NCBI GenBank assembly: GCA_030278955.1
Contig: JAOANR010000002.1
Span: 25,902,057 to 25,966,056 of the forward strand
Length of the DNA: 64,000 nucleotides
Reading direction: 5' to 3'
Source of the DNA: Hygrophila difformis
Lineage: Eukaryota; Streptophyta; Magnoliopsida; Lamiales; Acanthaceae
The notes under the pieces were generated by a model that ran no database searches, was not told the DNA's origin, and worked only from the letters and a program-made list of their open reading frames with translations. Positions 27,152 to 60,699 of this stretch are shown in pieces (the stretch's first letter is position 1; each line of letters opens with the position of its first letter). The translations under genes and the position numbers were made by a program.

Positions 27152-27157
27152 TAAAAT
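27146..27157. other. Deletion junction between D LTR and Athila LTR
   Basis: Left of 27151 the sequence matches D LTR position 16036. Right of it, the sequence matches Athila 5' LTR position 56500. Neither side is at a natural element end and there is no TSD, so this is a deletion or rearrangement joint with at most one or two bases of shared sequence. Confidence 0.85.
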
Positions 27158-27764
27158 GTGACAGAAGGGACAGGGAGAAAGTAATAAAGATTGGACAAGA
27201 TTCAGATGAAACATAATTAAACTTCCATTTTAATACACAGATCTTTGTTTGGTATAATCCATTAGTTAGCTAACTCTCATGATTTCTAGACTATGTTCCC
27301 TTTAACAGACAGGTACTTACAGTCAGAATTTACATGCTCTTAAGACCCCAACCTCTAAGATACCACATATTAATAACTGCCCCTGCCGAGGTATGTTATT
27401 CCTCCATGGTGGATAAGCAACACCTAACACATCATTAGTTGACATGCCAAGTACTCCTATCATCCCCCTTGTCACACCCAAAGTCCAAATTAATTCCCGA
27501 GCTAATCCATAACTCTTAAACCTTACAACCGGCAGCCAACCTCTAATTCTCTCGAGTGACCTCTATGAAAGCATTTTAAAGAAAGCGGTAAAGAAAGCAG
27601 TAAAGAAAGCATTTAAAAACCTATCACTCGGAAGTCTTAAAAGCTATCTCATTCCGTTAGTATAAAAGAGCCCCTGGTCTTGGTGACCAGATGCAGATTT
27701 ACAACTTCCCAAATATCCATAAGCCACAGGGCTTATAACATCCGGTTAGTTATGAGATACAAAC
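27152..27764 (-). repeat. Athila 3' LTR, piece 1
   Basis: Matches 56500-57112 base for base except scattered differences, ending with CAAAC where element F inserted. Non-coding. Confidence 0.92.
27760..27764. repeat. Target-site duplication CAAAC, left of element F
   Basis: CAAAC occurs here and at 38617-38621. The undisturbed LTR copy has a single CAAAC at 57108-57112. Confidence 0.95.
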
Positions 27765-34868: not shown

Positions 34869-34899
<31 letters not shown>

Positions 34900-34907: not shown

Positions 34908-34930
34908 GACCCTAGGGTCCAGGGTGTTGG

Positions 34931-34976: not shown

Positions 34977-35337
34977 TGGAGATACCCTTGTTCGATATTC
35001 ATCTCCACATAATGTTTATATATATATATTTACATATTTAGGTTATTTATTACTACTTGTATTTTTGTTTAGTTGTTATCTATAGGTCATTGATTATTAT
35101 TACCTTGTTCATTTGTTTGATCGGGTTTTAGCAGGGTATTCGAAAAGAAATATTTAATTAAAGTGTAAGGAATACTTTAAATATACTTGTATAAAATAAA
35201 TGCTTGTAGATTTATTACTCAAGAGAAAATTTTTCAGCTGATTACAAGCATTCGTAAACGGAATGAAATAGTAGTGCTAGTACTAGTTTTGAAAAAAAAG
35301 AAACATAGATAGTAGTGCATCTGTATGGGCTCCAAGT

Positions 35338-35736: not shown

Positions 35737-36209
35737 CTAATGTCAACAAGGAGGTTAGAGTTAGAGTATGTTTCGAATATAAGTCATGATATGCAGGAAT
35801 TTAAATCTATATGGATATGCACATGCAATCCCCCCAAAAGTTAATTTAATTTAATTTAAATTTAATCATGGATAAAAAAAAAAAAAACTGGGCCTCTATA
35901 TTGGCCAAAAATAATAATTTGGACTTAAGAAATAAAAACATGGGTATTTGGGCCAAAATGGTTGGGCTTATAATAAATAATTATTGGGTCAATAGTTTGA
36001 CCCCCTTTTTGGGCTCAAAATATTACACTAATTGGTTAGGAAAATTTTTTTTTTTTTTTTTTTGGGCTCAAAATTTGGGCTAAAATAATAATACTAGTAG
36101 TCTTAAAAATAATAATGATAATAATAAATTTAAAAATAATACTTAGTTAAAAATATTTTAAAATAATAATAATAGTAGCTTTAAAATATTCCGGGCTCTG
36201 ATACCAACT
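35737..36209 (-). other. Leader of F with primer-binding site at 36193-36206
   Basis: The complement of 36193-36206 is TGGTATCAGAGCCC (initiator-Met tRNA PBS). The leader holds the GGGCCTCTATATTGG motif (35890-35904), repeated 'ttgggc(c/t)' text, a poly-T run at 36046-36063 and AT-rich ataata repeats. No gene. Confidence 0.88.
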
Positions 36210-38616: not shown

Positions 38617-38621
38617 CAAAC
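38617..38621. repeat. Target-site duplication CAAAC, right of element F
   Basis: Identical to 27760-27764, and the Athila LTR continues with TGAGTGG as at 57113. Confidence 0.95.
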
Positions 38622-41532
38622 TGAGTGGAACAGACCTGTGAAGATCTATCCCGAATGTACTCACTCAAGACTCAATTTTAGGCTTTGGTGGGAGAAGATA
38701 ATAGTTGAAAGAATACTCAACCCTACCTTAGAAATTAACCAAGGCCTACATGTTGTTCCTCTAGTATTATTCATCATGTCTTATCCGAATCCAAGTGGAC
38801 ACTGATTCGATGCAATACGTAATAGAAGATTTCCAACACACAGTAATTTTGAGAAAACAATAGATGTTGAAAATTATTCCCTAAACAGGTACGAAACTCT
38901 CAATTAAAACACAGATCCTTTCAGTCTAGGTGAGACCTAATCGCTGACTCTGCTTCTAAGTTCTCAAAATCAACCCCCAGTAGAATATGAGTTAGTCATA
39001 ACTGTCGAATTTATCCCTTACTCAGATCCGGATTTTATAAAGTGATTTTTGTGGAAATTTATTATGCAGCATCTGATTTAAATTAAGACTTCTATGTCCA
39101 ATGAGAAGGATCTCCAAAATATTATAGACCACAATATTTACATAATAATATCATGCATACATGTATATGAGATGTAAAATAAAATACCCCAAAATATATG
39201 GTGGGGTTAGACAGAATTTGATACACAAAGATGGATTAGCCTGAGATAAGAAGAATTTGGCTAACAAGAGTGCCAGAAATAATTGGGGTTATCCGGATTG
39301 CAAACATCTCCTATCCGGTTCCCAAGTATTCCAGATGGAAAGATTTTTAGACAGTAGGGATCCCTTAATGACAGTGATCGCTATCATCGAGAGTCCTACT
39401 GTCTATGAGTGAGGAAAAACCTATACGTTTTCTTACTACAGTAATGCTATAACAGTGTTGATCGACACTATCTAACAGTACTGTAGCTCGAAATTCAGGT
39501 TTGAAATTAAGATAAAGAAAAGAAAACTGTATCTAATTAGGAGTTGGCTGAGTGGCTAATCGTTATCCCCATGAAGGAACCTTTTCGCCGTAGCTTCCAC
39601 CAACCACTAATCAGATCATGCAAAATAACGAGTAATAATTAACACACAGAAGACGAACTAATCATTATCCCGGTGAAGGGACCTTTTCGCCAACATTGAT
39701 CTGTGATGTTCCTTATTACCCATTCATACACACAATAAACAGAAAAGATGAAATTAACAAAATATTTTTGGTACTGTGTGGGTGTTAATCACACAATAAT
39801 TTAGACACTAATGGGTTGAGATGTGTAATGGATAATAATGGGCCTAAGCCCAATACACCCATGCAACTTACACAAATCAAGGAATAAAATATTTTTAACA
39901 TTTTAAAATAGAAGGAAGAAATCAATTCGGTCTACTAGGTAAGGTGCAAAATAGACCGAATTGAGGATGCATGAGGGATGAAGTATGGCCTTACCCAATT
40001 AATCCTTGCAAAGATATGAAACATCATCTAATTCGAATTGTCGAAGCAATTCGGTCTAAACCAAATTGGACTATTCGAATTGATGAAGTCATTCCTTTAC
40101 TCAAATTTGGACAAGGCTTTTACCCCAAAATGAGGGTGATTCGAATTGCCAGGTTAATTCGGTCTAAACCGAATTGGCAATTCGAATTGGTAAGACAAAG
40201 AAAATAAACTAAGGCATGAGGGGATGGAATGCATAGAATATGGTGTACAAGGTCAATTCGGTCTATGGGAGCAATTCGGTCTAAACCGAATTCGCACAGA
40301 CCGAATTTGCCTGTGCACCATATGAGAAGAATTTTTGCTATGCACTTCCATTTTTTGCCATGCACTTCCATTTTCATGGGCAATTCGGTTTAGACCGAAT
40401 TGCCTCAAATCGAATTGCATGTCTTTTTCCACATAAGTGTATTTTTGTGCTCACAAGTACCGGTTCGGTTTACACTGTGTGGTCTATGATGGATGAGATT
40501 TACCAAATCCTTCATTTCACATCAGTGTCACCTCACAGCCACACTAGTGAGCATTTTAAGGAAATAGCATAGTAGAGTACGTGTCCAGTGGGCAGTGGTA
40601 AGAATCAAACCCTAATTCTACAAACAAGAAATCAAAGATTAAAGAACATAAAACACTTAAACATCTAAGAACTACATGCATAAAAATAAGAACACTTACA
40701 TTATCTAAGGCAACAATAAACTAAAGTAAAGAGAACAAGAACAGTAACATAAGACATTAAATAAATTCTAACAACCCTAAAAGTGTCTAAAACCTAAGAA
40801 CACTTATTTGAAGCTCTAAGGCATGAAAACAAACCAAAAACCCACTAAACATGCATTTATTGAGAATGCAAGTCAACTAGGACATAATAAATGTAACCTA
40901 GTTGAAACAAACAAACATTCTAACATTTATTGCTAAGGAAAGAATTAAAGGGGTGTCGAACACATGAAATAAAACCCATTTCTGGAATTTCTTCTTGAAT
41001 TGGCACTTGAAAGCAAATAAAGAACCCAAAACCATCATTAACTTGAAGGTAGGGTTTATTCTAACTACAAAGCATGTAAAATGTATGGAAATGGCTACTC
41101 TAAAGGTAGTAACAAGCTTCTATAAAAATAAACTGAGATCAAGATATTAAAACTAAGCTACAAGCATGAAAAATAAACTAACTAAACTAAACTACCTATC
41201 TAACCCTTAAGGGGTGAAGAACTGCTTCTGCTACTTCTTTTTGTCCCCAGCCGAATCTCTTGTAAAGTGTGTAGTGTCTTTTTCTTGTGAATCTCTTGTA
41301 AAGTGTGTAGTGTCTTTTTCTTGTGTTGAGGAAGGTCAGCTTTTATACTTCTTCTCGAAACCCTAGGCCCATCAGGGCCCATCAACAGTGTCATGCATTT
41401 CTCACGTGCTCACAGTTTCAATTGGATGCAATTTTGAATGTAATTCGGTCTCCTCAAGCAATTCGGTTTAAGCCGAATTGGTGCAATTCGAATTGCATGA
41501 GGTCTTCCTTCTTGATCTTGAGCATGGAATGT

Positions 41533-41537
41533 GGTAT
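41533..41537. repeat. Target-site duplication GGTAT, left of C3
   Basis: GGTAT here and at 43852-43856; single GGTAT at the empty site 60056-60060. Confidence 0.95.
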
Positions 41538-43851
41538 TGTAACACCCCGGTTTTTGGTCACCCAGGTCGGGATGTCACCGCCACACCTCCCTAGTAAGAC
41601 ACGGTTTCTCCGGCTTACTAAAGAGATGTAAGGCTAGGTATTTCAGTATTTAAAAGCTTCGAAAACATTTGCAAACAGCCCCTACAATATAATCTCGAAA
41701 ATAATAATATCATAGCGCAGCGGAAAAAGTATTTAAGTATAATATTGCAGCGGAAAATGTAAATAGGGCCGACATGGCCAAAACACGGGTTAAACAGGCC
41801 CGTTCATAATATAGTCTAATGTACGAATTTAAAACGATAAGTTTTCCAAAAAGAATGTAATATCCCCCATGCATGAATATGGTCACGCTCATTCCACATA
41901 CTCTGTAAGAAAAGGAAAAAAAATAAAAATGGTTTGGTCCGCACAACTTGCTGAGTAAGTTAACACATGCATGATCGTAGGGTTTAAAAGCCATTAATTT
42001 AATATTTAAATAACACATGATAATAACATAAATAATTTCAGTTTAATTTAATCAACTATTCAATTTGCATAATTCAATTCAGGGCTTCCTTTAACAATAC
42101 ATTTCACATAATCCAAAATAAAAGCCATAATTTAAATAAGCATTTAAATAATTTAATGGGACAACAAAACATAATTTAATTTAATTTAAATTGCCCCCTT
42201 ACATCCCAGATTTAGTATTTCAAGTATTTCACGATTGCATCGCAATCTCAACAAGTTTAGCCGGTAGCCCGGCGGCCGCAACCGTATCAGCCATACCCAG
42301 TGCCACTCCGGAGCCTCGGGAAACCCATGTGGATATTCTCGAGAGTGTAGGCTCTATATCTCATGCCGTTTTGGCAATATCATATCTCAATTTCGCGCGG
42401 GGTCACCATCGTCCATTAAGGCACGAAGTGAATCGTTAGGGGGCACACTGCAGAGCACTCACCCCTAATTTTAATTTATCAAGTTTGTAAGGGGATTTAA
42501 TTTCAAAAATCTGATTTCAATTTAATTTATTTGAAAATCATATTTGAACTCATTTCAACCCTAAAGGTTAATTTCATGTTTCAACAAGATTTCAAGGTTT
42601 GACTTTCAGTAAACCACTGTTTACTCTAAAATTCGTCTAAAATCAGATTAAACTCCAAAAATTCCGAAATATCACTACTGACTCAGAAACGTCAAGATGA
42701 ACAACTTTCGTGTTTTAACTTTTTCAATCCGAGATACCGAAACATGTCAAAAACGTCAATCTTCGCAGAAACACAAATCTGTCCGAATTTCGCAGACCAC
42801 AGTTTAAAGATATTGAAATCTACCATAGCAAAACAACTCCAAATTTGATGAAATTTTACAGAGACCATCTTAAGACATTTATCTACAACTTTCATATTCG
42901 GCCAAAGATCTAAATCGGTCTAGAACTAATGTCAAAAACGTGATCAAGATTGGACCTAATGTAAGTATTAACTTACAGAGTTGTGAACGTCCGGGATCAT
43001 CTATTTCGAAGGCGTGGCTTCCAGTCCACCGTTTCTCCTCTCGGTTCGTCGGGTTCTACGCTCTAGATCCAATTCGAGGTGTAGAAGGGAAAAGGAGAAG
43101 ATTGGGATTCGTTTTCGAATCGTATATTGAACAAGGATTGGATCGAAACTTACCACGATGCTGGAGATCTCAGAATTTCCGTCCAACCAGTATTCGCCTT
43201 GGTTTCGTGCCTCCGACGACTCCGGAATTAGGGTTTCGAATGTATAGAGAGAGTTGTAGGTTTTGTAAAAGTGTTCGGGGCTTCCAAGGGGGTTTATTTA
43301 TAGATAGCTAAGACCTAGGGCGTCCAAGATCTGACCCTAAGGGTCTTGAGTCGAAAGATGTTCAACCGAAGTCGAAAAATCCGCGTTCGGGCGAGAGATT
43401 CACGCAACGGGCGAATCGGTCCGACGGCGCGCCCATCCTTATTCGACCGTGTGGACACCGCGCCGAACTCGCCCGGACTTCGGTCCGGGCGGGTCGTGCG
43501 ATCCGTCGTGCTTTTCCTCCTCTCTTTCGGACTTCTATCCTTCTATGCTCCCGTTTTATGATCTTCGGGGTATCTTCGGGTTTCTACTTTCTCTCTACGT
43601 TTTTACTCGGGTCTAATTGGATGTTTGGACTCGAATTCTTGAGTTCATTGGTGTCGTGTTCCGGTGTACAATTTATTTACCTTTAATCAATCTTTTTTAT
43701 TTAATTAAATTCCTTTAATTCCTTTTTAAGTAAAATCTCATTTCTCATTTCCTTATCTTTATTATTTATTTATTTATGGTATTTATTGTATTTATTGTTT
43801 ATTTATTTAATTATTGTTTTATTTTATGTTGAAAAATTCTCGGGTATTACA
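41538..43851 (-). mobile_element. Solo LTR C3 (C family)
   Basis: 2.31 kb from TGTAACACCCCGGTTTTTGG to TCTCGGGTATTACA with GGTAT duplications and no internal region. Related to C2 and to the LTR of host element H. It contains a 'ccggcggccgcaaccg' block at 42268-42285 related to the duplicated unit in F, GTAAGTT in sense at 42970-42976 and a CpG-rich region at 43380-43510. Short ORFs in it show no gene features. Confidence 0.94.
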
Positions 43852-44478
43852 GGTATTCATTCATCAATTCGGTCTATGTGTAGACCGAATTGGCCTTTTC
43901 GAATTGATGATGGCTCCTGTTTGGCTTCCTTGCTTTGAGGCAATTCGGTCTATGCAATAAATTTGGTCTTAGAACGAATTGCATAGATCGAATCGCGTCT
44001 CTCCTTTATGTTCAGGGTCTTCTTCTTTCCATAGTGCAATTCGGTCTAGGAGTCAATTCGGTTTAGACCGAATTGCCACAGACCGAATTGGTTGCTCTGC
44101 TTCTCTTCTTCAACACTTGTCTATTTTTCTTCTTCTTTTCCTCAGCAATTCGGTTTAGACCGAATTTGCATATACCGAATTGATCTTCAACACTTAACCA
44201 AAAATTTCAGTTTGTGGGATTTTCATTCTTTTTCCCATCTTTTTGATTCCTTTTTCTTTTCTTTTTCCTTTTTTCATGTTTTTGGATTTTTCTAACACAA
44301 ATACTATTAAAATTTCATATTTTTGTGTCTTTCATTACCAGCTTATTTTTCTTACAAACTTGCATTAATCTGTCGAATTCAACTGCTTTCTTATTAAAAT
44401 AAGATGGGATTACGATCAAAATGTCCGTCTCAGACACGGAAATGGATTGGAAATAATGGACAATTTTGGCCATTATCA
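43852..44478 (-). repeat. Athila 3' LTR, piece 3 (LTR start in sense)
   Basis: Begins with the right GGTAT and matches 60056-60699. It ends CCATTATCA on the + strand, i.e. TGATAATGG in sense. Contains four or more AATTCGGTYTAGACCGAATT-type palindromes (43868-44185). Confidence 0.92.
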
Positions 44479-44492
44479 ACATCCTCACATTT
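44475..44492 (-). promoter_or_regulatory. Athila polypurine tract at the 3' LTR border
   Basis: In sense AAATGTGAGGATGT immediately precedes the LTR start TGATAATGG. The last four bases of the motif AAATGTGAGGATGTTGAT are the LTR's first bases. It primes plus-strand synthesis. Two more copies of the same 18 bases lie inside the element (46977-46994, 49559-49576). Confidence 0.82.
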
Positions 44493-46245
44493 AATACTGA
44501 TCGTCCCCGAGCAGTCAGAGTCCGAGCTCCTAAGAGCATGGACTCTGCACATTCAATCTATTTGCGTGGCTTCAAAAATTTCATTCTTGTTATATTGGGA
44601 TAAGACAATCAAAATTACAACTATTAAACTCTCTTGATTGCAGTGTTTAATGAAATGATACTTCTCACTTGAATAGGTATACAAACCAATCATTATTGTT
44701 AATTCATCTTGAATATATGTATAGAAAATTTCATTGGTTTAATTTTTGAATTCAAGCATGACATGAACATTAATCAATCAAAGCAGAGCCTCACATATAG
44801 TAGAATTGGAAATTTCACTCGCTCTTGAAGTTGGCTTTTAGACAATACTCTCATAATCAAATTCAAATAAATTCTCCCATAAGCTTGCAATTAGACCAAC
44901 TCGCCACCTACTCATTTCCTCAAATCGCGATTCCGAGGTCTTATTTAAGGTTATAACGGGGCATACGGTTGTAACATTTGGTAGGGAAAGGACATTATTG
45001 GGCTAAAAAGTGACACGAATCCATTCCACCATGACATGGCATATTTTTATTTAAAATTTATGATCATCAATACTTCTTTCTTTCTCTTGTTTTTCTTTTC
45101 TATTGCATGACATTAGACTTTGTCTAATTTGCTTTGTCAATTGCAATTTATTTCTGTTGAACAAATCTCAACATTTTTTTTCTTTTCTTTTCTCTTTCTT
45201 TCTTTTTTTTTTGATCGGTTTATGGATACCGATTGATATATTTTTGATGATCATAAACTATAATGCCTTGATGGAATTGGTGCATGTACACTTGGGTTTG
45301 ATTTTCTTGGTCTTTTTATAAGGCTAGGAAAATATAGTGGTTTCAAAGAAAAATTAGGCTTAAAGGCTCAGATTGGTTAATCCTAAAGGGAAAATATTTT
45401 TGGGTTTGGATTTCAAACGAAGGCCAAAAATTTGGGTTTTTCTAAGTGCCTCGATCATATGCTCGATTTCGGGAATATGGCATGGTCTTGAATCGGTCCC
45501 AATTGCAAGTTCTAGTGTCCTTTAATCGAATTGATTTTCACACAACAAAGAAATAATGAGTAAAAATGACTCGGCTCAGATCTCACATGGTATGGTTTGA
45601 TCATGTCATACATTTATTCTTAAATTTAGCCTTTGAAAAATTCTTGCATTTTATTCAATCAAATTCTCAATATGAAAATTTCGTTTTCTTCCAAGTGATC
45701 ATATCATTGGATTTTATAGCTCAAAACCTCGAAAATTTATATCATGCATATTTTTAACTGTTTTATCCAAATTTAATAGTTTGAAAATTTCATCCTTAGT
45801 CTAAATTCAACATGTGAATTTAGGTGACCGATTTTATGCTCGTTTTATGCCAGTTATTTAATTGAAAACAGTAAAGAGATACTGTGAACATGCAAGCATG
45901 TCACAGTTTTGTTTTTGGCATGACAGTCACTTATTCATCTTGGACTGTCACACATCTTTTTCAATTTTTTTTTTTTGAGAATTCAAGACGAAATTCTCTT
46001 GCGGAAAGCATGAAGGATTAATTCCAAATTACTTCTAACAACCATATCAGGTGGTTCCAAGGTTCGGCTTATAGCTACGACCTTACTTACAGAAACCCAT
46101 TAATGTATTAGTTACAGGAGATGCTGTACACTTGGATCAAGTTTTCACAAGAAGCAATTCAAAAGATCTCCTAAATGAAGTTTCAGTTTAATTACTCAAA
46201 AGTGACTCCTTACAAGATAAGTCTGTCTTCCGCATCCTTCTTCTC
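44493..46245 (-). other. Post-F-box region of the Athila element, non-coding
   Basis: About 1.75 kb between the F-box stop and the polypurine tract. AT-rich, with T/C-rich tracts near 45070-45215. No frame on either strand shows a recognisable protein; the small ORFs are hydrophobic low-complexity frames. I see no env-like gene. Confidence 0.55.
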
Positions 46246-48408
46246 CTATCCTTGGAAGAAGATCCTGCTCCAATGGACGGAATTTGTCAGGCTGCAGGGC
46301 AAGCAGTAATCACCCAAGTCGTCTTGGTTCTCCAGCACTTTTTGACAGTAGACTCTGGGTCCTTGGTCAATGAACATATCAGGGGTCTCCAGGCTTTCCG
46401 ACAACCATGCAAAGACGTTGTTCCCCACATATGCCATGATTGATTCGTCCGTCACCATTTTGTCTATCATTGCTATCCCCTGACGGACCTGTTCATTATC
46501 CAGCTTGCTGAGTAGCATGAATCCCCTGACAAAGATTGATGCTTTGTGATTATCATCAATCCCTGGTTTTAGCAACTCACAGGCTCCTTCCTCATCACCT
46601 GCTCCGAATGCTTGTAGGGCTGGTACGAACTGGAGGTAATAGTTGCCTGCGTCGACACACTTTTGCATGAGTTCCTCCTTCTGCCCTTGGATTCCCAATT
46701 TCCACATCTTTACGATTGTGGTCTCCAGTTCACATCTCTTGTAGACTATTGGGAGATCACCTGCTGCCCTAAACTTCTTGCATACCTCTTTGACAGCGAA
46801 AACCTTTTTGATGTCATCCTCTCCTATACGGGAGAGGATTTCTCCTAGAAGTTCTACTGGCAGGTCCAGTAGTTCAGTCCTTTCCTGTTCTGGGGCTGGA
46901 TCTGGAAGGATGATGTCCCTGCGAAAATGGGGAAAGTGTTTTTAACGGTTTTCTGATAATAATATTCAAGTGGAAAATCAACATCCTCACATTTTGAGCT
47001 AAGCTCTAAATGTGAGTTAATTAGTTTTACTTGAATTTATTGAGCTATACTACATATTATAGGACAAGAGGTTAGATTATTGAATCTAACAATTATTACA
47101 ACTAAAAAGTAAGAAAAATAAGGGAAATAAGGGTCTTGGACCCTTACATTTTTTCTTAGACTAAAAATAGTCTTAAGATTTTTTTGAATGGTCAAGGGAC
47201 CAACAGATAGAATTTTTATAGGCTATTGAGCCTACAAAAGAAAAGTTTATTTTGATAACTATAAAAGTGATTAAAATCATATGAAATGGGAAGATGGATA
47301 TTCAATAATGAAGAATCAATACACATGAAGAGCTATGCAATTACTAGCACAAGGTGATGGACTAAGGAAAATAAAAATAAGAAATAAGCACACACACACA
47401 CAAAGGCTATTTTTGGATTTTATGGAAAGTGTTGACTTGTTTATTTAATAAAGTTGGGGGTGTGAGTGGTCCCCCATTTGGATTTTTGTTTTGGGAAATG
47501 GGTATTAATGAGTGAGCAAAGTTGCTTCACTTGTTTATTCCCCACATATCCCAATAATGAACATGTCAAACACTTAAATAACAACAAAATTCTATCAGCT
47601 TTTTGTCTTTTTAAACATAAGTGCCATGCCAATAGTGTTTGAAAAACACTTGTCAGGAAAAATTTTGGCATGGTTTCGTCTGTAATACCATGTTTCCAGT
47701 GTATACAAACATCAACTTTTCAGTTGGGTTTGCACGTTGTGGTAAACAGGTACCCACAAAAACATTTATTAAAAAGGTTTTACAATACAGTAGCATGCAC
47801 ATACTAAAACAAACACACAACAGTCCATTCACACCAATATCATGCAAGATTTGCCAATAAATCATGCTTCAAAATTCAAATTATGCAGCATTATCAACAT
47901 GCATATTCAATCAACATCAACAAGTATCCAATAAACAAAATAACACAGTGGTTGAGGGGAAAATAACCTCTGTGTTTACTCCATTTCCACAGTGTTCACA
48001 AAACAAACAAAAGCAACACAGTTTATGCACAAACAGTAACAATGGCAAAAAGTATTCACATAATGGAACAAAAACGGATTTTTGAGGGTTTTGAAACCCA
48101 ATTTTTCAAAATAGATATCCCCCAACACCACAGAGAACTCAAAACATCAACAATGGCAGTTCGAACCAAAGCAAGAAAAAGCCCTAGTTCGCACTACTCT
48201 GTTTTATCCTATTTCCGATCATGCCCAACCTTTTCCGACCATATTCCGACCATCCCTAACTCGAAAACAGTCCTCATTCCCCTCCCCATTACTGAGTTCG
48301 CGAAAAACAATCAAAATCAAAAACTGGAACTCGCGAAACAGGGGTGCGAAACCGAAAATAGAGAACTTACCCTTGACTCCCACTTGGATTAGACGAAGAA
48401 GACGCCAT
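46246..48408 (-). CDS. F-box protein gene carried by the Athila element (two exons)
   Basis: Predicted spliced product of 236 residues: exon 1 is 48408-48371 (ATG plus 12 codons and 2 bases), exon 2 is 46918-46246. The joint restores a Gly codon and the frame is open to TAG. After a Ser-rich N-terminus, an F-box spans about residues 30-68 (LPVELLGEILSRIGEDDIKK, then VCKKF). F-boxes bind Skp1 and place a target on an SCF ubiquitin ligase. The rest (residues 90-165) is helical with Sel1-like features (AGNYYLQFVPALQAFGAGDE, IFVRGFMLL). The tail has C218, C221, H228 and ends SRIFFQG. Overall it recalls plant At2g35280/At1g67623-type F-box proteins, from memory, not searched. It lies in sense where Athila elements usually have an env-like ORF. 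It is open while gag-pol is broken, suggesting recent capture or retained function. Confidence 0.75.
46919..48370 (-). other. Predicted intron of the F-box gene
   Basis: 1452 bp. The donor is G|GTAAGTTC at 48370-48363, a near-perfect plant donor. The acceptor is TTTTCGCAG (AG at 46920-46919) after a moderately T-rich stretch. It contains one internal PPT-plus-hairpin module (46977-47016), about 60-100 nt before the acceptor. The rest is AT-rich with no genes. The presence of an intron argues against capture by reverse transcription of a fully spliced host mRNA. Confidence 0.7.
46977..47016 (-). other. Internal copy of the PPT/LTR-start motif with hairpin
   Basis: In sense, a near-perfect inverted repeat (arms CTCACATTT and AAATGTGAG, one mismatch, then 4 bp GAGC/GCTC, 3-base loop; 46986-47016) runs into AAATGTGAGGATGTTGAT (46977-46994). 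This equals the true PPT plus the first four LTR bases. Confidence 0.8.
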
Positions 48409-48550
48409 TTTAGAAAGCTTTGGAAAGATTTGAACGGGGTAAGGTACTGGTTCGAGCTCTGGTTTCGCGAGGAAGAAGGGTTCGCGAATGGAGGGAATCG
48501 GGGAATGTTCTAAGTGTGGGAAAGTGAAAGTGAGGGAAAAGAGGGGGGAA

Positions 48551-48564
48551 AAGAAATATATAGG
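48551..48564 (-). promoter_or_regulatory. Candidate TATA box of the F-box gene
   Basis: In sense CCCTATATATTTCT, about 145-155 nt upstream of the ATG at 48408, in an otherwise C/T-rich stretch typical of plant 5' untranslated leaders. The palindrome array starts just upstream. A promoter is inferred only from motif and position. An in-frame upstream Met (48582) would lie before this box. Confidence 0.5.
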
Positions 48565-48577
48565 GTGAGGGATAGGG

Positions 48578-49232
48578 GGCAATTCGGTCTATTGGAGACC
48601 GAACCATCAGTTCGGTCTAGACCGAATTGATGTGGTCTCCAAGTGCTTGTGAGAGATTCGGTCTCTTAGGCCAATTCGGTCTAGACCGAATTGGCATGGA
48701 GACCGAATTGAGGGGAAAGATAAACAAACAAGCAACTTACTGCAATGCGGTCTTTTAAAATCAATTCGGTCTAGACCGAATTGATCTAGAGACCGAATTG
48801 CAGCAAGAAGACCGAATTGGGTACTTAGGAAAAATAGTGGGGGTTGCTTTTATGAGGGGATTCGGTCTATATGGGCAATTCGGTTTAGACCGAATTGCCA
48901 ATTCGGTCTAAACCGAATTGCCTTATAGATCGAATTGCTCACTTGCGAAAATAAGAATGATGCAATGCCTTTTGTAGATCAATTCGGTCTATTCAAAATC
49001 AATTCGGTCTAGACCGAATTGCTATAGACCGAATTGCTACTTGGCCATATTTACGCAAGGATGGAACATGTGCCTTGGAAGCTCAATTCGGTCTCTTAGG
49101 CCAATTCGGTCTAGACCGAATTGGATTGGAGACCGAATTGGTAAAAATTACCAAGGCAACACCTCCGATGCGGTCTGTTTCAAACAATTCGATTTAGACC
49201 GAATTGAATTGAAGTGCAAATTAGACCGCATT
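48578..49232. repeat. Array of nested palindromes, core AATTCGGTCTAGACCGAATT
   Basis: About seven units in 650 bp, spaced roughly 80-110 bp. Each has a perfect or near-perfect 20 bp palindromic core (near 48615, 48680, 48770, 48890, 49005, 49105, 49195). Most are flanked on one side by a half-site AATTCGGTCT and on the other by AGACCGAATT, giving an inverted repeat inside an inverted repeat. Spacers between units are unrelated. The same core occurs many times in both Athila LTRs but not in the Tekay-type elements. Confidence 0.9.
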
Positions 49233-49558
49233 CAACACTTAGAAAAATTTTGGAATTTCCAAATTTTTACCATTTTTGAAATTATGCATTTTTTTTTAAA
49301 ATTAACATACTAAATAAACCTATTTAAACAGAAATAATTCTCTCTAATAAATTGCTTGCATAAATTAGGTTGGATTGACACCCTTATTTTATGGATTTAT
49401 TCCGGATTTTAAATTCCTCTAAATTCTGAAATTAATTTCCATTAAATTTAGTATTAATCCAACCGGGAACCTGGTTTTTGAAGCTTTATCTTTCTTTTTG
49501 TTGGTTCCATCAATTCCTGCAAGGCAAACACAAGAAAATTATTAGATTTTCTCCAAAT
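49233..49558 (-). other. AT-rich spacer downstream of the Athila integrase region
   Basis: No gene or repeat beyond the palindrome array and the internal PPT module that flank it. Confidence 0.45.
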
Positions 49559-49597
49559 ATCAACATCCTCACATTTAGAGTCTTAGTACTCTAAATG
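49559..49597 (-). other. Internal copy of the PPT/LTR-start motif with perfect hairpin
   Basis: A perfect 10 bp stem (CATTTAGAGT / ACTCTAAATG, loop of six, 49572-49597) leads in sense into AAATGTGAGGATGTTGAT (49559-49576). It lies about 85 bp after the integrase stop. It is the second internal copy of the 3' PPT border. Confidence 0.82.
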
Positions 49598-49681
49598 TTT
49601 AGTTGATTTTTGGATACTTATTGTCCGAGAAAAATGAATATGTTATGTAATAAATAATTATATAAGTATATATATATATTT

Positions 49682-51003
49682 TTATTGAGCATAGGCCGGC
49701 TCTGATATCGTTTGAACTTCTTTTTTGGGGTCGAACTGTCCTAGGTATTCCTTCAGTCTCTGTCCATTCACCACCAGCTCTCCCTTGTCAGTTCGAATCC
49801 TGACAGCTCCACTTTCAAACACGTGCACCACTTCGTATGGCCCTTCCCATCTGGATCTAAGCTTTCCGGGGAACAGCTTCAACCTAGAATTGAATAACAA
49901 GACATTTTGGCCAACGTAGAAGTGTTTAGATTTTATACGACGATCGTGTAACTTCTGGGTCCGCTCTTTGTAAATCCTCGAGCTTTCATAAGCTTGCGCA
50001 CGTATTTCCTCAATTTCATTGAGGTCCAACTTGCGCTTACTCTGAGCAACTCGTGGGTCAAAATTAAGCGTTTTTACGGCCCAGTAAGCCTTGTGCTCTA
50101 GTTCTACGGGCAAATGACAGGCTTTTCCAAAGACAAGCTTGTATGGAGACATCCCGATGGGAGTCTTGAATGCAGTGCGGTATGCCCATAGAGCATCATT
50201 GAGCTTACGTGACCAGTGTTTGCGGGTTATTCCCACAGTGGCCTCGAGTATATGTTTGATTTCGCGGTTTGATACCTCGACTTGGCCACTAGTTTGGGGA
50301 TGATAAGGCGTGCCGATCTTGTGGAGAATCCCACTTTTGCTCATAAGATTTGCAAAAGCTTTGTTAACAAAGTGGGTTCCTCCATCAGATATGATTACCC
50401 TAGGTACACCAAATCTATTGAAAATGTTATTTTTCAAAAATTTGATAACTTGGTTACCATCATTGGTTGGCAGCGCAACCGCCTCAACCCACTTGGACAC
50501 GTAATCGACAGCTACCAAGATGTAGTGATTCCCATCAGATGTCGGGAATGGTCCCATGAAGTCAATACCCCATACATCGAAAATCTCAAGGGTGAGAATT
50601 CCTTTTTGAGGCATTTCATCCCTCTTGGAGATATTCCCTAATCTTTGGCATCTGTCGCAAGCCTTAACAAACGCCCTGCAATCCTCGTAAATGGTAGGCC
50701 AATAGAAGCCACACTCGAGCACCTTGTGAGCTGTTCGAGTGGGGCCATGGTGACCTCCAGATTCCGATTCATGACATTTTTTTAGCGATTTGATAAGCCT
50801 CGTGCTCAGTTACACATCATCTAATAATCGAATCTGCACAATGCTTGAAGAGATAAGGATCTTCCCAGAAGTAGTCAACTACATCTCGGTTGAACCTTGC
50901 TTTTTGGTTCTTTTGCTGGAATGGTGGGATTATTCCACATGCTAAAAAGTTAGCAATGTCGGAAAACCATGGACAAGCTTGATCATGAAGGTGCAAGGCA
51001 AAC
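49682..51003 (-). pseudogene. Athila integrase (broken)
   Basis: Continues pol after a +1 shift near 51003. Segment 51014-50820 encodes the linker to integrase ([15 protein letters not shown]) and ends at a TGA (50817-50819, Arg-type position). An extra A in a seven-A run (50777-50783) then shifts the frame inside the His pair of the HHCC zinc finger. From 50722 the frame is open for 346 codons: the Cys pair (ACDRC), catalytic core with [16 protein letters not shown] and GQVEVSNRE (D, D, E), and the C-terminal domain ([20 protein letters not shown]). It ends with TAA/TAG-bounded stop at 49682. Three lesions make it non-functional. Confidence 0.93.
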
Positions 51004-54000
51004 AGTTTGCTCATCCGGAAAATTTTCGTTGACGGCTATCTCATTTTTATCATTTTCTATTCGAGACAAATGGTCAGCAGCACCATTGTCTCTGCCTTTT
51101 CTATCTTTTATTATGATATCAAATTCCTGCAACAAAAGTACCCACCTGATTAATCGAGGTTTGGCATCTTGTTTACTGAACAAGTATCTCAGTGCAGAGT
51201 GATCTGTGTATACTATGGTTTTCGTACCAATGAGGTATTGTCTGAACTTATCAAACGCGAAAACCACAGCATACATCTCTTTCTCCGTGGTGGTGTAATT
51301 GACTTGGGCTTCAGTCAGGGCATGACTTGCGTAATGAATCACGCAGTGTCTCCCTTCCTTATGTTGCCCAAGAACTGCACCCACGGCGAGATCACTTGCA
51401 TCGCACATTACCTCGAAAGGTATTGACCAATCGGGTGATTGCACTATTGGGGCAGAAATCAACATCTTCTTGAGCGTGTCAAAGGCTTGAACACACGCTT
51501 CATTTATTAAGAAAGAATTTTCTTTACAAAGCAAATTAGTGAGCGGCTTGGCAATTTTAGAAAAATCTTTAATGAATCTCCGGTAAAAACCGGCATGCCC
51601 TAAGAAGCTCCTAACTGCTTTTATTGAGTTTGGTAATGGAAGGTTGGATATGACTGAGACTTTGGCCCTATCGACTTTGATGCCTGCGCGCGAGATGCGG
51701 TGACCCAACACTATTCCTTCGGTGACCATGAAATGGCACTTCTCCCAGTTCAAAACTAGGTTAGTGTCCTCGCATCTTTTTAAAATTTTTGCAAGATTAG
51801 TCAAACATTCGTCAAAAGTATCTCCATACACAGAGAAGTCATCCATGAAAACTTCAATGCATTTTTCGATAAATTCTGAGAAGATAGACATCATGCATCG
51901 CTGAAAAGTGGCAGGCGCATTGCAAAGTCCAAAAGGCATGCGCCTGTACGCAAAAGTTCCATATGGGCACGTGAAAGTGGTCTTATCGTGATCTTCACTA
52001 GCTATTACAATTTGATTGTAACCAAAGTACCCATCCAAAAAGCAGTAATACTCCATCCCGGCCAACCTCTCCAGCATCTGATCAATGAACGGCAAGGGAA
52101 AGTGATCCTTCCGCGTAGCGGTGTTAAGCTTCCGGTAATCGATGCAAACTCTCCAACCGGTCACTGGACGTGTCGCCACTTCTTCTCCTTGCTCATTAGT
52201 CGTTATGCACATCCCCCCACGCTTAGGTACTACCTGCACTGGGCTAACCCATTTGCTGTCAGATATAGGATAGATGATACCAGCATCTAAGAGCTTAATA
52301 ACTTCTTTCCTTACCACTTTTTGCATGTGGGGGTTCAGACGCCTTTGTGGTTGCCTAGAGGGCTTGTACTCCTCTTCCATTAAAATTCTGTGCATGCAAA
52401 CAGAGGGGCTTATTCCATTTATATCAGAAATGGTCCATCCAATTGCATGTACATATTTCTTTAGAATGTCTACCAGAGCTTTTTCTTGTTCTTGTGTCAG
52501 CTTGGCTGACACAATTACCGGTAATCTTTTATGTTCAGCGAGAAAAACGTACTTAAGATGATCCGGGAGTATTTTAAGTTCAAGCTCTGGCGGACATTCA
52601 ACGGAAGGCAGTAATTTGTGAGAAATGGATGGGGGTGAAAGATCAGATTTACCTTCAGGACCCTGTGTTAGTACAGGGTCCACTTCCTCTTCCGTGGTGC
52701 TCTCCTCCTCCTCCGGAGTGAATTCAACACCGTCGAATTCTTCAAGATCCCCAGTGATAGGGTCCTCGAAGTGGACAGCGTTGCAGCTTCTTTCTTGCTC
52801 GGCACCTTCAGGCGTCAGTACCTGTTTTGAAACTTTGTCCTTCATCACAGTCATAGAGTCTATGCTCTCATCCTCACACCTACTTTCTATTACATCAAAC
52901 ATGGAACAAGATCCCTCATTCGGGAACTTCTGCAGCTGCTCCATGTCAAAGGAGATTTCTTTGTCGTCGACCCTCAATGTGACTCTTCCAGATGTAGCAT
53001 CAATCAATGCACCGCCAGTGGCCAGAAACGGGCGTCCCAAGATAAGTGGCATTTCAGAGTCCTCTTCAATGTCAAGGATAATGAAGTCAACCGGGAAAAG
53101 AATTTGGCCGGTTTTGACTACCACATCCTTGAGGATTCCTACGGGTTTGGTGATTGATCTTTCTGCCAGTTGCAGTTTCATCTTGACTGGTTCAATCTCT
53201 CCGAGCCTTAGGCGGATTGCCATGGCTAGAGGCATCACGTTGATGCTGGATCCTAGATCACATAACCCCATGCTCACTTTGGCCTTTCCAATTTGTACTG
53301 GCAGCGTGCAACATCCAGGGTCCTCTTTCTTTTCGGGCAGTTTCCTCTGAACTATGGCACTGCATGTGCTGTTGAGAATAATCACCTCCTCCTGCTCTAC
53401 CTGCCTTTTCCCTGAAATCAATTCTTTCAAGAACTTAGCATAGGTGGGCATTTCTGAAATCATTTCCACGAGAGGAATGGTTATCTCTACAGACTTTAGC
53501 CGTTCTAGAAATTTCTTGAATTTAAGGTCATGTTCCTTATTTTTAAAGCGTGCAGGGTATGGCACCCTTGGCATGTACTTATTATTATCAATTTTTGGTG
53601 GTAAAGAGAAGGAAGTTGTACCTTCACCCATACCCTTTTCAGCTTCAATTGCAGCTTCAGCCTGCGGATTAGCTGCCTCTGATTTGTCCTTTACCAGCTC
53701 AACACTTTCATTTCCTTCAATCTTTTCCTTTCCCTTTTCTACCTCCAATGAAACCTTTACTTTCATAGCTTTCTTCTTCCCGGATCCAACGTTTCCTTTC
53801 AGAGTCTTGCCTCCCCGCAATGTGATTGTTTTGCACTGTGGGTTGGCTTCAGTGCTGCTTGGTAGTGTTCCCTTCCCCCTGTTCTGCAATTTTTTAGCCA
53901 ACTGGGTGACCTGCGTCTCCATATTTTTGATCGATGACTGCAACTGCTGGTTTATCTCCCTTTGATTGGAAATGAACTCGGTCATCAAATTCTCCAGGCG

Positions 54001-55683
54001 GGATGGTGGCTTTTGGTTGTATTGCTGATTCTGGTCAGGTTGGGCTTGGAAATTTTGGAAATTCTGGCCTTGGTTTTGGTTAGGCCTCTGTTGGATATGG
54101 GGTTGAAAGTTCTGATTCTGATTCTGGAAGTTCTGTACTCTCTGCTGAACGAATCCTTGGTTCTGAGGTCTGAAGTTCTGCTGAGGATTTTGGTTTGCAA
54201 ACTGGTTAGGCTGATTTGGCTGTGTCAACAAATGCGCATTAAGTGCATTGTTGTTGGAATAGGAGAGGTTGGGGTGGCGATTCTGATAGCTCCCTGCGTA
54301 ATTGCAGCTTTCGGTAGCTATTTGTTGGCATGTGTCAGTTGGATGTGGTCCCTGACATAGCCCACAAATTGCTCCCGATTGCTGTGTTTGCACTTGGCTA
54401 GATGAGGCTCCTGCCTGAGAAGTACCTGCTCCCTTTCCTTTCTCCTGACCTAGCTGTATCGCAGCCACCTGTTCCTGCAATTTTTCGAAATCTGTCTTTC
54501 CTTCACTTACAGCAAAAACTTTTCTAGGAGGTTCCACTTTCTTCTCATTAGTGTTCAATACATATCTATTGACAGACATTGTCTCGATCTTTTCCCAGGC
54601 TTGGTCCATGGGCAAATGGAGTAAATGTCGTCCGCCTGCAGCGTCCAACATCGTTCTCCATGGATGGGTGAGCCCTCCATAGAATTTCCTCAGTTGCTCC
54701 CATGGTTGATATCCGTGTTGGGGGCATCGCCTCAAGAGGCTGGAGAACCTCTCCTTTGCGTCATACAATGACTCGTCCGGCTTCATCTTGAACTCTCCAA
54801 TCTTGGCTAGTCCTTCCTCTATCTTTGATTCAGGAAAATACTTCAACAGAAAACTCCTTACCAAATCTGCCCAGGTGCTCCTCTGATTTATAGGCAATAA
54901 TTTATACCAATCCCTGGCACCACTAAACAAAGAAAAGGGAAACAACATCAGTCTTATAGCATCAGGTGAGACTCCCTGATTTTTTATTGTATCGCAGAGC
55001 TCCAGGAAGGTTTGGAGATGATCATGGGGATCCTCGTGATTTGCACCGCATAATTGATTGTTTTGCACCAAGTTAATGAGTGTCGGTTTGAGCTCAAAAT
55101 TGCGTGCAGGAAATTGTGCTCTCCCAGGCCTATCCAGATAAGGCTCCACGATGGGCTGCATAAAATCAGCTGCTGCCTGCTGCTATTGATTTCCTTGTTC
55201 TGCTTGGTTTTGATACTGCTGGTGGTAATTGGGATTCTGTTGGAACAGATTTTCAGGATCATGATGGTTGTTCTGAAACTGGTCTTGATTGAAGGCTTGA
55301 TTCTGGTATTGCTGGTTTTGTATATTTTGGTTTTGGTTGTTATATTGGTTAAGAGGTGGTGGCGGTTGTTGGTGGAATTGCTGATACTGTTGCTGATTTG
55401 GATTAGGTAGATTTTCCTCCTCGTTGACACGATTCGGGTGTTCTACCACACTCCCATCAGCTCCATTACCAGGGTTATTGGGTGGTTGGTCTATTGGTAA
55501 GATCGGGGGAACGTCCTGGTTTTCTGCCATGTCAGATATTTCACTGCTTGTAGTTTCGGGTGAGGTACGAGTCTGTGCTTCTTGCTCTTTCCTTCGTCTG
55601 GCTTGCGCCCTCAGTTGGCGAGCGGTCCTTTCTATTTCTAGATCGAACGGTAGCTCAGGCAATGTGTCCTTTCTCCGTTGCAT
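51004..55683 (-). pseudogene. gag-pol: Athila gag-pol: gag, protease, RT, RNase H (one internal stop)
   Basis: Starts at ATG 55683 (MQRRKDTLPELPFDLEIERT, typical Athila gag N-terminus). A Gln/Asn-rich region follows, then TAG at 55183-55185 in a poly-Gln context, most likely from CAG. The frame is then open for 1392 codons from 55161. Counting from there: gag with NFELKPTLINLVQNNQLCG and LFSGARDWYKLLP (about 20-200), a CCHC knuckle CGLCQGPHPTDTC (about 267-279), a Gln/Asn-rich linker, a protease with CDLGSSINVMP (about 635; the active site is DLGS), RT with WRVCIDYRKLN and FMDD (about 1105), and RNase H with CDAS (about 1254) and AADHLSRIEN. A frameshift near 51003 ends it. Confidence 0.94.
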
Positions 55684-55811
55684 AAGCAGTTTGTATCGTG
55701 ATGTGACAGCACCTGCACAACCCCCAGGTTAGTAATGGTTCAAGAATATATACAAAAACTATCTATGAGTAAATCAGAAGTGTAATTCTCTTAATAAACG
55801 GCGCTGCATCC
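55684..55811 (-). other. Short Athila leader between PBS and gag
   Basis: Only about 130 bp separate the PBS from the gag ATG. No other signal recognised. Confidence 0.5.
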
Positions 55812-55829
55812 TCCCCGGCAACGGCGCCT
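55812..55829 (-). promoter_or_regulatory. Athila primer-binding site (Asp tRNA)
   Basis: In sense AGGCGCCGTTGCCGGGGA, matching the complement of the plant Asp-tRNA 3' end (TGGCGCCGTTGCCGGGGA) at 17 of 18 positions. Asp-tRNA priming is typical for Athila elements. It sits directly beside the LTR end. Confidence 0.9.
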
Positions 55830-55969
55830 TGAAACTTTTGACAATTTCCGCACACGAGTATTTTAAAAAATATCAAGTTTGAATTTATTAAATGAAAAGA
55901 GTTATGATTTATGGGAAGGGATTTAAGGATATATTTCACTTTTTATTACTCATGTGGGAAACTTTGATT

Positions 55970-56065
55970 TCAAATGGCGCCATGAAACTCCCCGGCATGA
56001 AACTTTTGACAATTTTCCTGCAATGAAGATTCTCGCCATGAAACTTTTGACAATTTCCCACTATA
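55970..56065 (-). repeat. Repeated LTR-end text and split PBS halves inside the Athila LTR
   Basis: 'tggcgccatgaaac', 'ctccccggcatgaaac' and 'cgccatgaaacttttgac' occur within 100 bp. In sense the two halves of the Asp-tRNA PBS (GCCGGGGA and GGCGCCA) appear separately, each next to GTTTCAT, the terminal text of the LTR. They look like remnants of old PBS/LTR borders. Confidence 0.6.
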
Positions 56066-57107
56066 TGAGTATTTTCTGAAGAATAATAATCCCGGTTTAA
56101 TTTTATTTAATGAAACCAATTTATGAAGATGGAGTTGGGATTAGGGATATGTTTATAGGTTGTCACGTTTTTATTACTCGTGTTAAGAAACTGTGCCCCC
56201 GAAAGCGCACGGTGTCAAAAATTGCACTAATTTATAGTAAGACCGGATCGTTCACTGGAGGATGTGCGATAGAAGCAGGGCCCACGTCGTTTACTAAGAT
56301 TTTCCACTCGGTTACTCGATTCAAGTTTTGCAATGGTTTCTAACAACTACTTGACAATAATTTAAACTAGACTATGAAAGCAGTAAAATTATTCTACAAA
56401 GCATGATAAAATTAGTCTAAAAAGTAAGTAAACCTAATCTAAGAAAGCAATAAGAATTATGCTAAGAAAGCGGATAAAGTTATTCTATGAAAACAGATTT
56501 AAAATGTGACAGAAGAGACAGGAAGGAAATAATAAAGATTGGACAAGATTCAGATGAAACACAATTAAACTTCCATTTTAATACACAGATCTTTGTTTGG
56601 GACAATCCATCAGTTAGCTAACTCTCATGCTTTCTAGACTATGTTCCCTTTAACAGACAGGTACTTACAGTCAGAATTTACATGCTCTTAAGACCCCAAC
56701 CTCTAAGATACCACAGATTAATAACTGCCCCTGCCGAGGTATGTTATTCCTCCATGGTGGATAAGCAACACCTAACACATCATTAGTTGACATGCCAAGT
56801 ACTCCTATCATCCCCCTTGTCACACCCAAAGTCCAAATTAATTCCCGAACTAATCCATAACTCTTAAACCTTACAACCGGCGGCCAACCTCTAATTCATC
56901 CGAGTGACCTCTATGAAAGTATTTTAAAGAAAGCGGTAAAGAAAGCAGTAAAGAAAGCATTTAAAAACCTATCACTCGGAAGTCTTAAAAGCTATCTCAT
57001 TCCGTTAGTATAAAAGAGCCCCTGGTCTTGGTGACCAGATGCAGATTTAGAACTTCCCAAATATCAATAAGCCACAGGGCTTATAACATCCGGTTAGTTA
57101 TGAGATA

Positions 57108-57112
57108 CAAAC
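57108..57112. other. Empty site for element F
   Basis: Single CAAAC in uninterrupted LTR text, corresponding to the duplicated CAAAC around element F in the 3' LTR. Confidence 0.93.
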
Positions 57113-60055
57113 TGAGTGGAACAGACCTGTGAAGATCTATCCCGAATGTACTCACTCAAGACTCAATTTTAGGCTTTGGTGGGAGAAGATAGTAGTTGAA
57201 AGAATACTCAACCCTACCTTAGAAATTAACCAAGGCCTACATGTTGTTCCTCTAATATTATTCATCACATCTTATCCGAATCCAAGTGGACACTGATTCG
57301 ATGCAATACGTAATAGAAGATTTCCAACACACAGTAATTTTGAGAAAACAATAGATGTTGAAAATTATTCCCTAAACAGGTACTAAACTCTCAATTAAAA
57401 CACAGATCCTTTCAGTCTAGGTGAGACCTAATCGCTGACTCTGCTTCTAAGTTCTCAAAATCAACCCCCAGTAGAATATGAGTTAGTCATAACTGTCGAA
57501 TTTATCCCTTACTCAGATCCGGATTTTATAAAGTGATTTTTGTGGAAATTTATTATGCAGCATCTGATTTAAATTAAGACTTCTATGTCCAAGGAGAAGG
57601 ATCTCCAAAAATATTATAGACCACAATATTTACATAATAATATCATGCATACATGTATATGAGAAGTAAAATAAAATACCCCAAAATATATGGTGGGGTT
57701 AGACAGAATTTGATACACAAAGATGGATTAGCCTGAGATAAGAAGAATTTGGCTAACAAGATTGCCAGAAATAATTGGGGTTATCCGGACTGCAAACATC
57801 TGCTATCCGATTCCCAAGTATTCCAGATGGAAAAGTTTTTAGACAATAGGGATCCCTTAATGACAATGATCGCTATCATCGAGAGTCCTACTGTCTATGA
57901 GTGAGGAACCTACACGTTTTCTTACTACAGTAATGCTATAACAGTGTTGATCGACACTATCTAACAGTACTGTAGCTCGAAATTCAGGTTTGAAATTAAG
58001 ATAAAGAAAAGAAAACTGTATCTAATTAGGAGTTGGCTGAGTGGCTAATCGTTATCCCCGTGAAGGGACCTTTTCGCCGTAGCTTCCACCAACCACTAAT
58101 CAGATCATGCAAAATAACGAGTAATAATTAACACACAGAAGACGAGCTAATCGTTATCCCGATGAAGGGACCTTTTCGCCAACATTGATCTGTGATGTTC
58201 CTTATTACCCATTCATACACACAATAAACAGAAAAGATGAAATTAACAAAATATTTTTGGTACTGTGTGGGTGTTAATCACACAATAATTTAGACACTAA
58301 TGGGTTGAGATGTGTAATGGATAAAATTAGATGTAATGGGCCTAAGCCCAATACACCCATGCAACTTACACAAATCAAGGAATAAAATATTTTTCACATT
58401 TAAAATAGAAGGAAGAAATCAATTCGGTCTACTAGGTAAGGTGCAAAATAGACCGAATTGAGGATGCATGAGGGATGAAGTATGGCCTTACCCAATTAAT
58501 CCTTGCAAAGATATGAAACATCATCTAATTTGAATTGTCGAAGCAATTCGGTCTAAACTGAATTGGACTATTCGAATTGATGAAGTCATTCCCTTACTCA
58601 AATTTGGACAAGGCTTTTACCCCAAAATGAGGGTGATTCGAATTGCCAGGTCAATTCGGTCTAAACCGAATTGGCAATTCGAATTGGTAAGACAAAGAAA
58701 ATAAACTAAGGCATGAGGGGATGGAATGCATAGAATATGGTGTACAAAGTCAATTCGGTCTAAACCGAATTCGCACAGACCGAATTTGCCTTTGCACCAT
58801 ATGAGGAGAATTTTTGCTATGTAATTCGGTCTCATGGGTAATTTGGTTTAGACCGAATTGCCTAGACCGAATTGCATATAGATTTTCATATAAGGCATTC
58901 AACAAACATTTTTTGCCATGCACTTCCATTTTCATGGGCAATTCGGTCTAGACCGAATTGCCACAAATCGAATTGCATGCCTTTTTCCACATAAGTGTAT
59001 TTTTGTGTTCACAAGTACAGGTTCGTTTTACACTGTGTGGTCTATGATGGATGAGATTTACCAAATCCTTCATTTCACATCAGTGTCACCTCACAGCCAC
59101 ACTAGTGAGCATTTTAAGGAAATAGCATAGTAGAGTACGTGTCCAGTGGGCAGTGGTAAGAATCAAACCCTAATTCTACAAACAAGAAATCAAAGATTAA
59201 AGAACCTAAAACACTTAAACATCTAAGAACTACATGCATAAAAATAAGAACACTTACATTATCTAAGGCAACAATAAACTGTAATAAAGAGAACAAGAAC
59301 AGTAACATAAGACATTAAATAAATTCTAACAACCCTAAAAGTGTCTAAAACCTAAGAACACTTATTTGAAGCTCTAAGGCATGAAAACAAACCAAAAACC
59401 CACTAAACATGCATTTGTTTGAGAATGCAAGTCAACTACGACATAATAAATGTAACCTAGTTGAAACAAACAAACATTCTAACATTTATTGCTAAGGAAA
59501 GCATTAAAGGGGTGTCGAACACATGAAATAAACCCCATTTCTGGAATTTCTTCTTGTATTGGCACTTGAAAGCAAATAAATAACCCAAAACCATCATTAA
59601 CTTGAAGGTAGGGTTTATTCTAACTACAAAGCATGTAAAATGTATGGAAATGGCTACTCTAAAGCTAGTAACAAGCTTCTACAAAAATAAACTGAGATCA
59701 AGATATCAAAACTAAGCTACAAGCATGAAAAATAAACTAACTAAACTAAACAACCTACCTAACCCTTAAGGGGTGAAGAACTGCTCCTGCTACTTCTTTT
59801 TGTCCCCAGCCGAATCTCTTGTAAAGTGTGTAGTGTCTTTTTCTTGTGTTGAGGAAGGTTAGCTTTTATACTTCTTCTCGAAACCCTAAGCCCATCAGGG
59901 CCCATCAACAGTGCCATGCATTTCTCACGTGCTCACAGCTTCAATTGGATGCAATTTTGAATGTAATTCGGTCTCCTCAAGCAATTCGGTTTAAGCCGAA
60001 TTGGTGCAATTCGAATTGCATGAGGTCTTCCTTCTTGATCTTGAGCATGGAATGT

Positions 60056-60060
60056 GGTAT
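60056..60060. other. Empty site for solo LTR C3
   Basis: Single GGTAT in uninterrupted LTR text (aatgtGGTATtcattc), corresponding to the GGTAT duplication around C3. Confidence 0.93.
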
Positions 60061-60699
60061 TCATTCATCTATTCGGTCTATGTGTAGACCGAATTGGCCT
60101 TTTCGAATTGATGATGGCTCCTGTTTGGCTTCCTTGCTTTGAGGCAATTCGGTCTATGCAATCAATTTGGTCTTAGACCGAATTGCATAGATCGAATCGC
60201 ATCTCTCCTTTATTTTTAGGGTCTTCTTCTTTCCATAGTGCAATTCGGTCTAGGGGTCAATTCGGTTTAGACCGAATTGCCACAAGCCGAATTGGTTGCT
60301 CTGCTTCTCTTCTTCAACACTTGTCTATTTTTCTTCTTCTTTTCCTCAGCAATTCGGTCTATTGAGCAATTCGGTTTAGACCGAATTTGCATAGACCGAA
60401 TTGATCTTCAACACTTAACCAAAAATTTCAGTTTGTGGGATTTTCATTCTTTTTCCCATCTTTTTGATTCCTTTTTCTTTTCTTTTTCCTTTTTTCATGT
60501 TTTTGGATTTTTCTAACACAAATACAATTAAAATTGTATATTTTTGTGTCTTTCATTACCAGCTTATTTTTCTTACAAACTTGCATTAATCTGTCGAATT
60601 CAACTGCTTTCTTATTAAAATAAGATGGGATTACGATCAAAATTTCCGTCTTAGACACGGAAATGGATTGGAAATAATGGACAATTTTGGCCATTATCA

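Follow-up and report, generated by a model that had tools for sequence, protein, structure and literature searches.

An apparently intact F-box gene with a predicted intron in the env position of an Athila-like retrotransposon

How does a gene of plant-host type come to lie within a retrotransposon, and could it serve the element that carries it? This question is raised by an F-box gene, of the type whose products tag other proteins for degradation, in a 64-kb window (the whole stretch of DNA analyzed, 64,000 nucleotides) of Hygrophila difformis. A previous sequence-only reading of the window had proposed that an Athila element took up the gene together with its intron and that its open frame hinted at a function. 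Our analysis of the gene and of the enclosing element rests on the one copy in this window. The arrangement, a host-type gene within an LTR element, is real and unusual. The features discussed below are listed in Table 1.

Table 1. Coordinates of the F-box gene and of the element that encloses it
Feature	Position in window	Strand	Remarks
5' LTR	55830..60699	-	TGATAATGG...TTTCA
PBS-like site	55812..55829	-	AGGCGCCGTTGCCGGGGA; directly after 5' LTR
gag - reverse transcriptase - RNase H frame	50983..55161	-	Pfam
Integrase (rve, H2C2)	49682..50722	-	Pfam
Polypurine/LTR-start copy 1, in hairpin	49559..49576	-	about 100 nt after integrase stop; z -4.07, 0/200 shuffles
Array of palindromic AATTCGGTCT/AGACCGAATT units	48581..49207	.	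upstream of candidate F-box promoter
Candidate TATA box	48554..48562	-	TATATATTT; about 150 nt 5' of ATG; putative function
F-box gene, exon 1	48371..48408	-	MASSSSNPSGSQ plus 2 bases; ends at GTAAGT donor
F-box gene, predicted intron	46919..48370	-	1452 nt; GTAAGT...CAG; T-rich
Polypurine/LTR-start copy 2, in hairpin	46977..46994	-	in F-box intron, 58 nt before acceptor; z -4.64, 0/200 shuffles
F-box gene, exon 2	46246..46918	-	F-box residues 29-72, TPR_27 residues 90-177
Polypurine/LTR-start copy 3	44475..44492	-	true polypurine tract plus 3' LTR start (LTR begins 44478)
3' LTR, first part	38617..44478	-	interrupted by apparent solo LTR 41538-43851
3' LTR, second part	27152..27764	-	beyond nested chromodomain Gypsy element 27765-38616

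An Athila-like element encloses the gene

Two matching LTRs enclose gag-pol. They start with TG, and the CA end is visible in the 5' LTR only, the 3' LTR being truncated. Both LTRs match across all three segments compared, with a K2P divergence of 0.023 (2.3%) over 4104 sites and 10 gap events. The 3' LTR ends at about 27152 and lacks its last 0.67 kb, of which there is no second copy in the window save two short matches inside the 5' LTR's own end. Two insertions interrupt the 3' LTR. One is the apparent solo LTR, flanked by the target duplication GGTAT, and the other is a minus-strand chromodomain Gypsy element with LTRs of about 2.4 kb and the target duplication CAAAC. The LTR pair of this Gypsy element differs by a K2P of 0.0136 over 2380 sites, which, set against 0.023 for the Athila-like pair, is in keeping with a later insertion.

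The domains follow one another in the gypsy order (gag, reverse transcriptase, RNase H, integrase), and no protease family was matched by Pfam at E 0.1. Just after the 5' LTR lies a PBS-like site that we take to be of the tRNA-Asp type, as in Athila. A second, archaeal-type RNase H is a marker of Tat, the sister lineage of Athila; Pfam gave no match to this domain (RVT_3) in the two pol frames scanned, which is weak negative evidence. By these markers, namely the PBS-like site, the domain order, the missing second RNase H match, and the long region after integrase, the element is classed as Athila-like.

Athila elements often, though not always, harbor an env-like frame between integrase and the 3' LTR. 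The integrase-LTR interval holds 92 open pieces, and among the 30 that were scanned with Pfam at E up to 0.1 no env-like family was matched; the matches in these pieces were to F-box, F-box-like, and TPR_27, plus one to Myc_target_1 at E 0.019. The F-box gene was indeed found where it had first been placed, after integrase and ahead of the polypurine tract in the sense orientation, and it lies between both LTRs.

The surroundings of the element are complex. At its truncated end, the 3' LTR is abutted by a Gypsy element (14641-27153) for which no matching target duplication was seen by eye, suggesting deletion or recombination at the junction near 27152. At the opposite edge, a plus-strand Gypsy gag-pol (60700-64000) begins close to the outer border of the Athila-like 5' LTR, and the Athila-like element was probably inserted into this plus-strand Gypsy element. 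Across the 5' LTR end and the PBS-like region (55825-56183), two segments of about 150 nt (55825-55955 and 56034-56183) repeat each other imperfectly at 71%. More GGCGCC and CCGGGGA pieces lie near 55980, and the pattern looks like a duplication of the LTR/PBS junction.

A predicted two-exon F-box gene

Joining the two exons at the GTAAGT donor (48370) and the CAG acceptor (ending at 46919) restores the frame reported earlier and gives 236 residues followed by a stop codon at 46246-46248. Within 46900-48420, GTAAGT occurs only once and YYYYNCAG twice, as the acceptor of the intron and at one site inside exon 2. Plant introns are typically T-rich, and the predicted intron holds 37.6% T and 34.0% GC, compared to 47.6% GC in exon 2. 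Without splicing, no in-frame ATG precedes the F-box: the open frame extends no further upstream than 46941, and the first ATG in it (46707) lies 3' of the F-box. The ATG of exon 1 stands in the context AAAATGGCG, and the TATA-like box pointed out in the sequence-only reading is present upstream of it.

We then consider the domains. The F-box that had been called clear was recovered by Pfam in the 236-residue protein with an E value of 4.7e-4, just under its cut-off (20.4 versus 20.5 bits, 0.1 bit short), and TPR_27 (PF23310), a tetratricopeptide-repeat family of plants, lies just above its own (27.2 versus 27 bits, E 3.1e-6). When the stop-to-stop frame of exon 2 was scanned, the F-box scored 20.5 against the cut-off of 20.5 and TPR_27 was again above its cut-off. 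Neither domain appeared in any of the three protein shuffles scanned (four were made). When the 5.07-kb interval was shuffled 300 times, the longest open run in any of the six frames averaged 117 codons, with a maximum of 241. The 231 open codons alone are therefore within chance, and it is the domain hits, not the length of the frame, that carry the case for the gene. An AlphaFold model of exon 2 alone was helical, with a mean pLDDT of 37, too low for use. Overall, as judged from these features, the env position is occupied by an apparently intact, two-exon F-box gene with a plausible predicted intron and a candidate promoter.

Searches for relatives were made in several collections. Pattern matches to exon 2 (5 in viral contigs and 41 in prokaryote genomes) and to integrase (14 and 98, respectively) yielded no relatives; these collections hold no plants, so the negative results say little. 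A sequence search of PDB gave no match at E up to 1, NCBIfam gave one chance-level match only (E 0.12), and Rfam gave none at gathering scores over 44000-61000.

The sequence-only reading had also contrasted the open F-box frame with the broken gag-pol as a hint of function. This contrast turned out to be uninformative. In simulations that used the LTR pair's own substitution and indel rates and the time since insertion, a neutral frame of 711 bases stayed open in 39% of the runs (38.8% in a repeat), which rules out the intact frame as a sign of selection since insertion. Lowering or removing the indels raised this share to 59% and 69%, respectively, and doubling the rates brought it down to 14%. 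The gag-pol span is 7.7 times longer, that is, about eightfold, and at these rates it would be expected to carry about 6.7 indels and 2.8 nonsense changes. Its pieces 55728-55186 and 55182-50986 share one frame with a single stop between them, while 50809-49685 is in a different frame. We thus count one in-frame stop and one frame change in the pieces examined, where four faults had been tallied earlier. The LTR rates may therefore overstate the decay of gag-pol, and with slower decay an open F-box frame would be even less surprising.

Element-type sequences around and within the gene

The sequence AAATGTGAGGATGTTGAT runs from the last bases of the polypurine tract into the first of the LTR, and it is found in three sense copies. 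A search with its last 17 bases gave three exact matches; allowing up to 3 mismatches, the chance expectation is a mean of 0.26 matches, and three or more were found in 1 of 100 shuffles. The first two copies resemble each other along a 53-nt stretch (83%) that includes the arm preceding the motif, and both lie in hairpins. The true tract, copy 3, adjoins different hairpins that are less exceptional (z -2.36, 3 of 200 shuffles as good). The copies stand out less when 75-nt windows are simply aligned. Their local scores are 56 (copies 1 and 2), 40 (1 and 3), and 36 (2 and 3), and 23 of 4600 random 75-nt pairs of the interval scored at least 36, the highest score being 76; the six best pairs listed all fall in the palindrome array.

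Within 49419-49559, a pyrimidine-rich stretch and a CAG lie 42 nt after copy 1, much as the F-box acceptor lies after copy 2. A short open stretch, GTNKKKDKASKTRFPV, follows this CAG and is perhaps a remnant of an older gene in the env position; the piece that contains it was one of the 30 scanned with Pfam, and no env-like family is listed for it.

The palindromic array upstream of the candidate promoter is of the LTR type. Exact AATTCGGTCT/AGACCGAATT units number 56 in the 64-kb window, 20 in the array, 20 in the 5' LTR, and 16 in the 3' LTR, and none elsewhere in the window. When one mismatch was allowed, 6 of 87 units fell outside the array and the LTRs, one of these six being at the array edge. 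Reading the promoter, exon 1, or the intron as a diverged piece of LTR was rejected: with the array left out, 0 of 5 and 3 of 30 comparisons beat shuffles. These three are two A-rich stretches of the 3' region, one of them matched to the LTR, and one short AT-rich match of the intron elsewhere. Beyond the array and the polypurine motif, the promoter, exon 1, the intron, and the 3' region bear no convincing similarity that would point to an LTR origin.

Origin of the gene and its possible role

The proposal that the element took up a host gene with its intron is right in that an F-box gene lies inside the element, but simple capture of the whole gene fits poorly. The gene is interwoven with polypurine copies and the LTR-type array, and the proposal is too simple for this reason. 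Insertion of a whole gene is likewise doubtful, because it would be expected to bring neither the polypurine copy in the intron nor the array. As far as the sequence allows us to judge, a straightforward transfer of the complete F-box gene out of the host is improbable.

We favor, with a probability of about 0.5, the reading that an Athila-like element acquired a plant-host-type F-box/TPR_27 exon downstream of its polypurine tract, the added 5.1 kb being bracketed and interrupted by copies of the tract. Copy 1 would then mark the probable end of an original env-less element, and all sequence from there to 44478 would be the added segment. Capture would most likely have started with a read-through chimeric transcript, after which reverse transcriptase would have switched templates at the repeated polypurine/hairpin site in one or two rounds; recombination at the repeated polypurine sites could have built the added segment instead. 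In the resulting gene, a promoter beside the LTR-type palindrome array would precede a short exon 1. If the gene is expressed, splicing over the intron that holds copy 2 would give the 236-residue F-box protein. The F-box of such a protein would be expected to dock on SKP1, a subunit of an SCF ubiquitin ligase, and its TPR-like part would select targets. The two exons may come from one gene or from two, and the polypurine copy between them allows for a chimeric gene. Against a route through RNA, an intron in sense orientation should tend to be lost in that passage.

Capture at the DNA level explains the intact sense intron more easily, and this is the strength of the next reading, which we consider less probable though still a serious competitor. 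A single event of nested insertion or recombination, in this copy or in a small clade, would have brought in a host F-box gene or fragment that plays no part in the element. The open frame is what 39% of the neutral simulations lead one to expect for such a passenger. However, polypurine copies that flank the gene and sit in its intron, together with an LTR-type array upstream, are unexpected for a recent whole-gene insertion. A MULE-like carrier would have long terminal inverted repeats, and none were found: inverted matches within 44301-50000 (E up to 1e-3) are confined to the array and one polypurine hairpin.

Alternatively, the F-box protein could be a standing, selected part of this particular Athila family that replaced env, with cis-elements common to the LTR and the internal promoter for coexpression. 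The common palindrome array, the integration of polypurine copies, the intact frame, the gene-like promoter, the start context, and the splice sites would all suit this reading, but the intact frame is uninformative at the element's age, and we regard this reading as unlikely. An extended version, argued by analogy and to our mind more doubtful still, is that this Athila family replaced its env-like gene with a spliced F-box gene of its own, which is coregulated with the LTR by way of the array and was put in place through recurrent template switching at the duplicated hairpin-polypurine sites, and that the protein redirects the host SCF ligase, perhaps against silencing factors in the manner of viral F-box proteins. 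Finally, an ordinary resident host gene outside the element, surrounded by the LTRs of other insertions, is rejected as very improbable despite its promoter-like sequence and intron. The LTRs match over three segments at 2.3% divergence (4104 sites), they enclose a gag-pol-integrase region of the same orientation, and element-type repeats flank and enter the gene.

If the favored acquisition downstream of the polypurine tract is true, it describes a route by which retroelements could add genes downstream of integrase, and the gene would be a concrete candidate for an element-encoded ubiquitin adaptor that counters silencing or regulates the element itself. Its interest lies in an apparently complete F-box gene, with a promoter-like region and an intron, that is bracketed and split by copies of the element's plus-strand primer site. 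The duplicated polypurine sites make the history of the capture testable in related copies.

The locus can be compared with several known systems. The element shares with the Athila lineage of plant Ty3/gypsy LTR retrotransposons the order of gag-pol, the PBS-like GGCGCCGTTGCCGGGGA, the long LTRs, and a long spacer between integrase and LTR with an extra gene, but it has an F-box gene in place of the env-like frame and three polypurine/LTR-start copies. Plant F-box proteins with TPR_27 (PF23310), such as the At1g67623-like proteins of Arabidopsis, similarly carry TPR_27 C-terminal to an F-box that lies near the N terminus; unlike them, the gene described here lies within an LTR element, and its short first exon is joined across an intron that contains element-type sequence. 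Viruses also encode F-box proteins, such as polerovirus P0 and nanovirus Clink. By analogy, and with no sequence relation implied, an F-box protein encoded by a mobile genome could take control of SCF. Captured host genes are known from LTR elements as well, for example, from maize Bs1. Both Bs1 and the element described here carry a host-type gene within their LTRs, but in the present case the gene has an intron and its own promoter-like region, and the element largely retains gag-pol.
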